64,000 nt of DNA from Serpentinicella alkaliphila. GTDB lineage: Bacteria; Bacillota; Clostridia; Peptostreptococcales; Natronincolaceae. The position numbers and the translations under genes were made by a program. How positions within the stretch are numbered: the first letter of the stretch is position 1; each line of letters opens with the position of its first letter. Of the stretch, positions 53,938 to 64,000 are shown piece after piece. The stretch is from contig NZ_CP058648.1 of assembly GCF_018141405.1 (NCBI RefSeq), positions 2,940,502 through 3,004,501 of the forward strand, read 5' to 3'. The notes below the pieces were generated by a model. It worked only from the letters and a program-made list of their open reading frames with translations. It was not told where the DNA came from and did no database searches.

Positions 53938-54024
53938 GCCGTGGTGGCGGAACTGGCAGACGCAGCAGACTCAAAATCTGCCGATGGCAACATCGTGGGG
54001 GTTCGATTCCCTTCCACGGCACCA
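53938..54024 (+). tRNA. tRNA-Leu (anticodon CAA)
   Basis: An 87-base class II tRNA with encoded CCA: acceptor GCCGTGG, D arm GGCGGAACTGGCAGACGC, anticodon arm GCAGA-CTCAAAA-TCTGC with anticodon CAA, long variable arm, T arm with GGTTCGATTCC. It has its own promoter and terminator. No integrase or repeated tRNA end was found beside it. Confidence 0.97.
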
Positions 54025-59630: not shown

Positions 59631-60788
59631 TCACCCCATAGTCTTTATGCCATATTCTCCATAAAATTTTTCAGTGGTACATTTTACACATAAAAGTGGA
59701 TTTCTTCCGAAATTCTCTATAATCCTCTCTTTCCAGGTCTTTTTCTTTTCAAAACTTTTTCTCTTATCCCTAAGCAATTTTTCTATAGACTTTTCCTTCA
59801 TAAAATTATATAGATGCACTATATCCTTGGATATCTTATTTCTTCTCCTTGAATACAGTCCATATCTTCTTACTGTCTTGAATCCTTTAGGTACTATATG
59901 TTGTGTTATTTTTCCTATAAATTCTAACACATCCATAGTTATCTTTACTTTTTTTCCATCGTTATGATCTTCATACCAAAACGTAACCTTTTCTCCATCA
60001 TATTCCTCTATTCTATATTCTGCTATATTTGCTCTAGCAAGATATCTTCCTATGTACTTTACTGCTTGTCTTGTATCATTCAGTTTTCTCTTTGCATTAA
60101 CATAAAACCCATTTGGATATCTTTTATACATCTCACTTATTAGCTGCCTGGTTTCATAACTATTAAAATATTTCTTAATTATTTCTAGTAGCACCTTCTG
60201 CCATGCTTTCTTCAAAAATGGATATGGTATATATTCAACACTCTTCCACCAATTATTATTTCTATCTATTGCTCCCTCTGTTACTAATGCATGTATATGT
60301 GGGTTCCATTTCAAATCTCTTCCAAAGGTGTGCACTACAGCTATTATACCTACTTCATAATCACATTTCCTATTATTTTTATACCAATATGAAATTACGT
60401 TGTATACTGCATCCTGCAATTCTTTTAATAATTCTCTCCTTGCATAAAAGAAGTTTCTCAGTTCCTTAGGCATTGTAAATACACTATGTCTATGCCCTAC
60501 CCTTAACATGTTCTGTTGCTGCTTTTCAGCCCATTTTAGTGTATATACTCTTCCGCATTTATTGCAAAACTTGCTTTTACATGTAAATGGTACTTTCGTT
60601 ACACTAAAACAATCCTCACATATATATTCGGCATATCCATTTTTAACATCGCTACAATTTATAGCCTTATTTACTAGATCATCTATATGTTCTCTCATAA
60701 CCTTAGGAACTCTAGACCAGTATGTGTTTTTAAAGTCCTCATATCTATCTACCAATATCTCTTTAACTGTTATCTTTTTTCTATTCAT
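59631..60788 (-). mobile_element. IS91-family transposase (HUH/Y2 type)
   Basis: A 385-residue rolling-circle transposase. A zinc domain comes first (CEDCFS, CKSKFCNKCGR at 57-80), then the HUH metal motif HIH at 164-166 in KWNPHIHALVTEG, then two tyrosines Tyr245 and Tyr249 in KYIGRYLA, the Y2 signature of IS91. It moves by single-strand transposition from an origin end to a terminus end. The frame is intact. I could not place the element ends; no terminal inverted repeats are expected in this family. The ribosome site is weak (TTGAGAT). Confidence 0.88.
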
Positions 60789-61937: not shown

Positions 61938-62108
61938 TTAATCTGTAAACTCTATCCTATCTAACTGTTTTTTAAAGCTCTCTTTAAAAGCTTCTATATA
62001 TTCTTTTCTCAGTATTTGCTGCTCATCTTTTTCTGACTCAGATAGATTCCTTGCTTTTGATTCTTTTGCTAAAAAATTAAGTCTATTGAGCTTATCATTT
62101 GGTAACAT
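61938..62108 (-). CDS. DUF896 (YnzC/UPF0291) small protein
   Basis: A 56-residue reading frame: MLPNDKLNRLNFLAKESKAR, later SESEKDEQQILRKEYIEAF and a C-terminal KKQLDRIEFTD. The pattern of two helices with LAKESKARNLSESE is that of DUF896, the family of Bacillus YnzC, associated with the SOS region there. AGGAGTG ribosome site seven bases before ATG. It is short and easily missed by gene finders. Probably co-transcribed with cheW. Confidence 0.88.
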   Translation of the reverse strand: MLPNDKLNRLNFLAKESKARNLSESEKDEQQILRKEYIEAFKESFKKQLDRIEFTD

Positions 62109-62197: not shown

Positions 62198-63013
62198 TTA
62201 GCTGCTAATTATATTAATAGAGTCATCTTTTTTGTCCTCAGGCTTAGGTTGACTTTCTATTAATTGTTCGTTTTCTTTGGGTTTGTCGTCCATACTAATA
62301 CTTGATACAACTTTCATAATGTTAACCATTCTAGATAAGTTTTCTCTTTGTTCTTCGGCTATATAAGGTTTTAACATCTCAATTATATCTATTTCGTTAA
62401 TTGTGCCCTTTTCTTCTATAGATTTATATAACTTTAGCATAGATAAGAGCTTTTTACCCTCACTGATTTTAGTAGAAATTTCTTTATCTAAAAACGGCTC
62501 AATAACATCAATATATTTTTCAATATGATCCATTGTTAGTCCTGTACCTTGACTATTTATGGTTTGTAAATCTTTTAATTTATTTGTAAATTTTTTAACT
62601 TGAACATCCATATCAATGGCCTGATGAATAACATCTCTTTTTTCATCGTCTATAAACTCGCTTAAATCAATTAACATATTTCGTTTTCTATCATCTAAAG
62701 TTAGGGAACTGTTTCTAATATTTGCGTTTACAATTTCATCCGTTTGGAATAATAGTTTTGCATTTCCAATAAGCTGAAGTATTATTTCTGCCCTATGAAT
62801 AATTTTTTGTTCATCTGTATCCATGTATCCTTTTATTCTATTGAGTAATTTCGCTTTTTTATCAATACTATCCGTATCTATTTCTTTAAAACTCAACTTC
62901 TTAGTAATATTTAATTTAGATTTATCTCTTGAAAGAAAAAGATATAAAAAAAATCCTAATACAAGTATATTTAATATATCACTATCATTATTTTTTTCTA
63001 TTTTGTTATACAT
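62198..63013 (-). CDS. Unknown membrane-anchored protein with four helical repeats
   Basis: A 271-residue protein I cannot assign. Residues 13-28 are a membrane helix, followed by a cytoplasmic region. I see four copies of a roughly 27-residue helical unit of the form hydrophobic-x-P/Y-acidic-xx-hydrophobic, at about 56-82 (RIKGYMDTDEQKIIHRAEI), 113-139 (DLSEFIDDEKRDVIHQAID), 167-194 (VIEPFLDKEISTKISEGKK) and 210-236 (MLKPYIAEEQRENLSRMVN). A divergent gene at 63172 carries the same unit. AGGAGG ribosome site. Role unknown. Confidence 0.65.
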   Translation of the reverse strand: MYNKIEKNNDSDILNILVLGFFLYLFLSRDKSKLNITKKLSFKEIDTDSIDKKAKLLNRIKGYMDTDEQKIIHRAEIILQLIGNAKLLFQTDEIVNANIRNSSLTLDDRKRNMLIDLSEFIDDEKRDVIHQAIDMDVQVKKFTNKLKDLQTINSQGTGLTMDHIEKYIDVIEPFLDKEISTKISEGKKLLSMLKLYKSIEEKGTINEIDIIEMLKPYIAEEQRENLSRMVNIMKVVSSISMDDKPKENEQLIESQPKPEDKKDDSINIISS

Positions 63014-63171
63014 TCTTTACCTCCTATTGGACTTATTTATTTATTAATAATATATTCATAGGTTTTCTTTTTATTAAAACTTTAAATTTTAGTAACAAAT
63101 TTTATTACAATTGCATACTTTATATAGAAGTTATTTTTTCATGTCATTTTATAAATTGGGGGGAAAGATTA

Positions 63172-63456
63172 ATGGATTTTAATAAGATTAATGAACTAAT
63201 GAATGCAGCTAAAAGAGGTGACTATTCAAAGTTAGAAGAGGTAAAATCAATGGTTTCTGATGAAGATTATCAAAAAGCAGTTAATATCTTTAATGAATAT
63301 AGTCAAAAATCTGAGGAAGAAATTTTAAAAGAGTTAAGCATGCTCAGGAAATTTGTGAAAAATGAGCAAGAAGTTATCGACAAAATCATGCCGTTTTTAA
63401 ATGAAGAGCAAAAATCTAAGTTAGCGAATGTTTTGAAAGCTTTAGATAATTATTAA
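63172..63456 (+). CDS. Unknown small protein with two copies of the same helical unit
   Basis: A 94-residue all-helical soluble protein. Units: LEEVKSMVSDEDYQKAVNIF at residues 21-40 and VIDKIMPFLNEEQKSKLANV at 68-87, matching the repeats of the divergent membrane protein at 62198-63013. The frame is open upstream to 62929, but ATG at 63172 has GGGGGGAAAG in front and is the natural start. It has a strong terminator. No function known; it may bind the membrane partner through the shared helices. Confidence 0.65.
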   Translation: MDFNKINELMNAAKRGDYSKLEEVKSMVSDEDYQKAVNIFNEYSQKSEEEILKELSMLRKFVKNEQEVIDKIMPFLNEEQKSKLANVLKALDNY

Positions 63457-63458
63457 AA

Positions 63459-63500
63459 AAAAACAGTGCTTCACACATTTTAATGTGAGCACTGTTTTTA
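63459..63500. terminator. Bidirectional terminator
   Basis: AACAGTGC / GCACTGTT outer stem with an inner CACATT/AATGTG pairing and A and T runs on both sides; it lies between the convergent 63172 gene and the GAF-domain gene. Confidence 0.9.
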
Positions 63501-63507
63501 CTTTTAC

Positions 63508-64000
63508 CTATGTCAGCAGGGCTGCTATTACACCACTGGTCAATTTAACTAAGTTATAGGAATTGTAATCAAACTCCCTATATTTAGTGAATGCAGTAAA
63601 ATACATAATTCCCTTAATATTACCATTATGCATTATCGGCATGATTATAATTGATTTCCAATTTGGGCTCCCAGTTAAAACATCGATGCTAGAAGTATCT
63701 TCCCAATCAATCAAATATTCACCCTGCTTCATATCAATAACTTTTTCGATTAATCTATTATTGTATTCTAATCCTTTTATCCAGCCTTCTACTAGTCGTC
63801 TTCGACAGTAACGGTTTGTAATTTGCATATTATCTTCTAGCTCAAAAACTGTTCCTTCTTCTGCCTCTAATATGTCGATTAACCTTCCTAATATCTCATA
63901 CAGCTTATCCTCTAATGTACCCTGACTACTAACCATTTCAATAGCCTTTACTAAGACCAGTGCATTTCTTTGATCCTCTACAACATTCCCTGTAATTACT
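63508..64000 (-). CDS. GAF-domain protein, C-terminal part
   Basis: The frame is open to the right edge, so the start lies outside the window; about 163 residues are visible. They form a GAF-like sensory domain (LYEILGRLIDILEAEEGTVF; WKSIIIMPIMHNGNIKGIMY). The domain ends the protein with no output module behind it, so any catalytic or DNA-binding part must lie upstream, outside the window. GAF domains bind small ligands or cyclic nucleotides; the ligand is unknown. Confidence 0.75.
   Translation of the reverse strand, partial: VITGNVVEDQRNALVLVKAIEMVSSQGTLEDKLYEILGRLIDILEAEEGTVFELEDNMQITNRYCRRRLVEGWIKGLEYNNRLIEKVIDMKQGEYLIDWEDTSSIDVLTGSPNWKSIIIMPIMHNGNIKGIMYFTAFTKYREFDYNSYNLVKLTSGVIAALLT

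Follow-up and report, generated by a model that had tools for sequence, protein, structure and literature searches.

A divergent pair of CotL- and CD1066-like genes in Serpentinicella alkaliphila shares a helical hairpin and probably belongs to the spore coat

The DNA analysed, called the window here, is a stretch of 64,000 nucleotides of contig NZ_CP058648.1 of Serpentinicella alkaliphila. Near its end lie two adjacent and divergent genes separated by 158 bp, whose coordinates, strands and arrangement agree with those given in a preliminary description of this DNA. The large gene (62198..63013, minus strand) encodes a CD1066-like protein of 271 amino acids and pI 4.4, composed of a predicted N-terminal membrane helix, four predicted helical hairpins and an acidic, low-complexity tail, and the small gene (63172..63456, plus strand) encodes a soluble protein of 94 amino acids that is a remote homolog of CotL (CD1065). 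In the large protein, a helix is predicted at residues 5-30 (62924..63001, minus strand), where the hydrophobic stretch ILNILVLGFFLYLFL can be read from the sequence, consistent with the previous description of this protein as membrane-anchored. It is followed, on the same strand, by the predicted helix pairs of hairpin unit 1 (residues 47-89, helices 47-61/66-89; 62747..62875), unit 2 (residues 106-154, helices 106-118/123-154; 62552..62698), for which repeat support is weak, unit 3 (residues 161-202, helices 161-174/177-202; 62408..62533) and unit 4 (residues 207-240, helices 207-217/220-240; 62294..62395). Unit 1, which includes LLNRIKGYM..EQ, is the best-conserved part of the protein, and unit 4 is homologous to the C-terminal unit of the small protein. 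The latter contains a helix at residues 45-61 (63304..63354, plus strand) carrying the class-wide motif (G)KSE-E-I--EL, and a C-terminal hairpin at residues 64-92 (63361..63447, plus strand) which is the unit common to both proteins.

Scans of both proteins against Pfam and NCBIfam gave nothing above cut-off, and PDB searches with sequence profiles and predicted folds gave no credible match for either of them, in agreement with the earlier remark that no named domain with this pattern was known; a fold match could nevertheless have been missed in the PDB search since both structural models are of low confidence. These AlphaFold2 models are all-helical with the expected hairpins, with a pLDDT of 64 (small protein) and 59 (large protein), so that the structure prediction proposed in the preliminary description recovered the hairpins in both proteins but only at low confidence. 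As for the surroundings, an intact IS91-like transposase ORF with Zn_Tnp_IS91 and Y2_Tnp domains (59631-60788, minus strand) is located about 1.4 kb from the pair, and a DUF896 gene lies close to it (61938-62108). A tRNA-Leu (CAA) gene at 53938-54024 (plus strand) is overlapped by an opposite-strand ORF that is probably spurious.

Each of the two genes is preceded by a putative promoter of sporulation type. For the small gene, a sigma-K/E-type element, AC-N17-CATACTTTA, is located at 63092..63124 (plus strand), with a -10-like box in 17/17 family loci, and for the large gene a sigma-E-type element, ATA-N17-TATATTAT, at 63047..63074 (minus strand). The -10 box of the latter, TATATTAT, agrees at 7 of 8 positions with the CATATTAT box of C. 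difficile, the mismatch being the first base. Since the patterns searched for were picked after viewing the sequences, their counts represent conservation above shuffles rather than blind prediction: GCATA-N(2,3)-TATA occurs 5' of the small gene in 17/17 Natronincolaceae loci (shuffle mean 0.2), with a suitably spaced -35-like element containing AC or GC in 16 of the 17, TTAATA..ATATA occurs 5' of the large gene in 16/17 (shuffle mean 1.0), and CATA-type boxes are less strongly enriched in other families (8/24 vs 1.4). In sequence, the conserved elements are similar to sigma-K and sigma-E sites of the mother cell. Past the 3' end of the small gene, an inverted repeat with flanking A and T runs is read directly at 63464..63494; it probably acts as a terminator in both directions, for the small gene and for a convergent gene encoding a GAF-like protein (63508-63999, minus strand), which continues past the window end.

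The hairpin common to both proteins centres on 'P-F/Y-(L/I)-x-x-E-Q' and its clearest likeness joins residues ~206-240 of the large protein to residues ~64-92 of the small one (best stretch 206-232 with 64-90). This match between unit 4 and the C-terminal unit of the small protein has a profile score of 17.0 (z 5.6 over all windows) and a p of 0.0006 against shuffles preserving the hydrophobic pattern, and reaches 16.1 in 24-column windows against a reversed-profile maximum of 7.5. Pairwise hhalign comparison of the large with the small protein returned the same alignment at E 1.4e-4. Unit 3 of the large protein also resembles the small unit (9.9, above the reversed control of 7.5). The shared unit reported previously therefore stands against shuffled and reversed controls, and the shared origin that had been suggested for the two genes is supported for one hairpin of the two proteins. 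The copy numbers given with it, four in the large and two in the small protein, fared less evenly. Within Natronincolaceae, the internal repeat of the large protein scored 9.3, below its reversed-profile control of 12.7, and the case for four copies comes mainly from homologs in other families, where the internal repeat scored 17.4, 17.2 and 12.1 (reversed control 10.8) and where the four large-protein units read like the small-protein C-terminal unit. The likeness of the large-protein units to the small C-terminal unit extends to four other families; it exceeds the reversed control in three of these and falls short of it in the fourth. In the small protein the C-terminal copy was recovered, but the putative N-terminal copy (about residues 17-45) was not significant against shuffles (p about 0.15).

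Both genes are widely kept among Natronincolaceae. The small protein was found in 17/20 genomes of the family, with 54-71% identity among relatives, and the large one in 19/20, with full-length relatives at 38-48% identity; the two genes are adjacent and divergent in all 17 genomes having the small gene, and the window genome has a single match for each protein. The named relatives are Natronincola, Anaerovirgula and Alkaliphilus, the first and the last of which are placed in Natronincolaceae. Among the three genomes of the family without the small protein are two reduced genomes of 1.6 Mb (G014 and G015, loci L036 and L037), which retain spoIVA together with a large protein reduced to ~195 amino acids and in which the small protein is undetectable despite spoIVA.

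Beyond the family, a small-protein profile (A2) found remote relatives class-wide, and a broader one (A6) gave matches in 42/293 genomes of the class. Five of these genomes (G074, G093, G138, G199 and G270) have partial matches in long ORFs and were not counted for co-occurrence, leaving 37, an exclusion based on match length and ORF length and decided after the SpoIVA result was known. In the phylum-wide sample, a single marginal match was obtained besides the window genome, so that within that sample the pair appears restricted to Clostridia. A divergent ORF lies upstream of the small gene at 26/28 loci outside Natronincolaceae, in 12/14 families, usually with an early hydrophobic segment; together with the 17/20 Natronincolaceae genomes above, this bears out the conserved divergent pairing that the preliminary description proposed to look for. 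At many of these loci the upstream protein is built in the same way, its units including MLKTLGPYLHEAEQ, AIKAMKPYLSQDSR, MLKVIHPILPEEQK and IMDSLTPMLNEEQK, and at L067, L109, L110, L113 and L114 the partner is short and devoid of recognisable units.

SpoIVA is present in 36/37 small-protein carriers and in 219/293 class genomes overall, with a hypergeometric p of 1.4e-4 which ignores phylogeny and, the carriers being partly close relatives, has to be taken as uncorrected for it. The only carrier lacking a spoIVA match (G167) is a fragmented genome, 92% complete. Among same-family and same-order genomes of the class sample, the small gene occurs in 4/4 spoIVA-positive and 0/13 spoIVA-negative ones. 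On the other hand, a small homolog was detectable in only 36/219 spoIVA-positive genomes and the pair is therefore not universal among spore formers.

Gene neighbourhoods vary between families. A subtilase (Peptidase_S8) gene is directly 3' of the small gene at L062 (161-1405), with equivalents in families f7, f40, f58, f21, f35 and f9, and families f47 and f65 have a cysteine-desulfurase-like gene in the neighbouring place instead. In f7 and f21, a hydrophobic mini-ORF of 56-72 amino acids (VLFFFMALTLIWDVHFEINHLLFFFIFLVL) is found between the two genes on the strand of the large one (L058, 1798-2010; L059, 1204-1422; L061, 1205-1387; L073, 1900-2070), and an AC-N16-CATATTAT-like element present in f7 may be the promoter of this mini-ORF.

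One carrier of the class sample connects the pair to a published locus. In genome G278 (4,259,110 bp), locus L084 consists of a LacI regulator, a Lys-rich small protein of 147 or 133 amino acids depending on the start codon chosen, a divergent acidic protein of 296 amino acids, then a 401-amino-acid Cys-rich, CdeC-like protein (8.7% Cys) and an antisense polysaccharide flippase; a DUF896 gene (L084 1122-1331) is farther away from the pair than in the window. In C. difficile, cdeC (CD1067) is flanked by CD1066, of unknown function, and by the antisense polysaccharide biosynthesis gene CD1068 (PMC6101409), CD1065 is cotL (PMC11460543), and its product has 146 amino acids (PMC6232153). Because gene order and composition of L084 match the cotL/CD1066/cdeC locus, G278 probably represents C. 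difficile or a very near relative of it, in which the small gene would be cotL and the large one CD1066. The small-protein family profile aligned with the G278 protein at an hhalign E of 4.5e-10 over 62 columns, an HMM genome search with a Natronincolaceae-only small-protein profile found the same CotL-like protein at E 2.3e-10, and the large-protein family profile aligned with the CD1066-like protein at an hhalign E of 1.7e-6 over 102 columns. Consequently, the possibility of an undescribed protein family, raised in the preliminary description, holds inasmuch as no named domain was found, but the small protein is remotely homologous to the published CotL and the large one to CD1066. PMC8265636 and PMC9542656 present CotL as a coat morphogenetic protein specific to Peptostreptococcaceae, without which coat and cortex are thinner, and cotL mutants as having coat, exosporium and cortex defects. 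CD1066 is listed as a conserved hypothetical protein in the table of the sigma-E regulon, and CD1065 in that of sigma-K (PMC3789822).

Several explanations were considered for these observations. That the shared unit is a chance likeness between two amphipathic helical proteins, encoded by unrelated neighbours, would fit the helical and charge-rich character of the sequences as well as the failure of the Natronincolaceae large-protein repeat to exceed its reversed control, and yet the match between unit 4 and the small C-terminal unit lies far above both shuffled and reversed controls and the likeness recurs independently in four other families, above the reversed control in three, leaving this explanation, already disfavoured, with very little probability. 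Equally improbable is a divergent regulator-target or toxin-antitoxin-like module in which the small protein would keep the large membrane protein repressed or neutralised. A divergent layout that pairs a small soluble protein with a membrane protein would suit such a module, against which stand the lack of any DNA-binding or toxin/antitoxin match in Pfam and NCBIfam, the single copy in the window genome, the stable paired position across Natronincolaceae, the separate conserved sporulation-type promoter elements, the linkage to spoIVA, and the coat role published for the C. difficile homolog.

A sporulation pair acting elsewhere than in the coat deserves more weight, though it is still considered unlikely. 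The anchored protein would then function in cortex synthesis or forespore engulfment, the small one would be a cytoplasmic regulator or chaperone, and the relation to CotL would reflect a shared hairpin and not the same job. The homology to CotL indeed extends over ~62 columns only, the Lys-rich C-terminal region of CotL is absent here, the small gene adjoins the subtilase gene and not coat genes in several other families, and the cortex too is thinner on CotL loss (PMC8265636). Nevertheless, the whole divergent arrangement is kept, large partner included, and the locus adjoins a cdeC-like gene in the C. difficile-like genome.

Taken together with the homology to CotL and CD1066, the divergent arrangement, the shared hairpin, the promoter-like elements and the co-occurrence with spoIVA, all of them observed, the explanation retained as probable is that of a mother-cell spore-coat pair, made of an anchored scaffold and a soluble CotL-like partner that docks via the shared hairpin. 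Both genes would be expressed in the mother cell as a sporulation pair. The N-terminal helix probably holds the large protein in a membrane, most likely the outer forespore membrane, and the protein would then present its row of helical hairpins for docking. Through the common C-terminal hairpin, the small protein probably docks on the large one or co-assembles with it, direct binding of the two being plausible, and would thereby act as a CotL-like assembly factor organising the layers of coat and cortex, a part that genetics assigns to CotL in C. difficile. A coat role in S. alkaliphila would be a transfer from C. difficile, for which the CotL phenotype and the mother-cell regulation are drawn from the literature. 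More speculatively, and with somewhat less than even chances, CotL and CD1066 could represent, in C. difficile, a two-part system that anchors the coat throughout the clostridial class. In it, a protein of the outer forespore membrane bearing a row of hairpins would recruit a soluble protein that has this hairpin too, perhaps through stacking of hairpin on hairpin, and the coat would thereby be tied to membrane and cortex.

The pair described here adds new members to the CotL/CD1066 kind and extends its range beyond one bacterial family, to Natronincolaceae and 12 further clostridial families. So far, CotL has been treated as a coat factor of Peptostreptococcaceae only and CD1066 as hypothetical, and neither the wide range nor a regular divergent partner nor the shared hairpin was found in the available CotL literature that followed the original description, a paper which may itself note part of this. 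Should the pair prove to be inherited together across the class as a unit with a common building block, CotL would gain a partner and the clostridial coat a candidate membrane anchor, and coat assembly could be tested in non-pathogenic species.

Known sporulation proteins offer comparisons at different levels. SsdC of Bacillus subtilis, a mother-cell protein of the outer forespore membrane involved in coat and cortex, is likened here by its description, and differs in being described as Bacilli-specific (PMC8265636). SpoVQ (CD3457) is the bitopic membrane protein tying coat to cortex in C. difficile, with a sigma-E gene, an N-terminal membrane helix and a soluble part that binds coat proteins (PMC8265636), and it resembles the large protein only in its described way of working. 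Identity of the two was considered, SpoVQ being also bitopic, sigma-E-dependent and coat-binding, and was rejected: the 144-amino-acid product encoded beside a CtpB-like protease in G278, which its position designates as the probable SpoVQ, is without helical repeats, and no similarity was visible in a by-eye comparison. With CotL, homology spans the C-terminal two thirds of the window small protein, both genes are divergent from a CD1066-type gene (in the window, in the family and at L084), the window small gene has a putative sigma-K/E-type promoter element, and spoIVA is in the genome. In contrast, CotL has ~133-147 amino acids, 24% Lys, a pI of 9.8 and a basic tail, whereas the window protein has 94 amino acids, 13.8% Lys, a pI of 4.9, no tail and an extra N-terminal helical region, and CotL is reported as Peptostreptococcaceae-specific (PMC8265636), whereas the named relatives of the window are Natronincolaceae. 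Being neither Lys-rich nor basic-tailed, the window protein is therefore a CotL homolog and not CotL itself, and its acidic character against the Lys-rich CotL means that their functions may differ. Finally, CD1066 resembles the window large protein by its N-terminal hydrophobic helix, its homologous unit 1-2 region, its acidic tail and a gene divergent from that of CotL, and in the C. difficile-like genome it differs by a long Asp/Glu-rich tail which stands in place of units 3-4, unrecognisable there.
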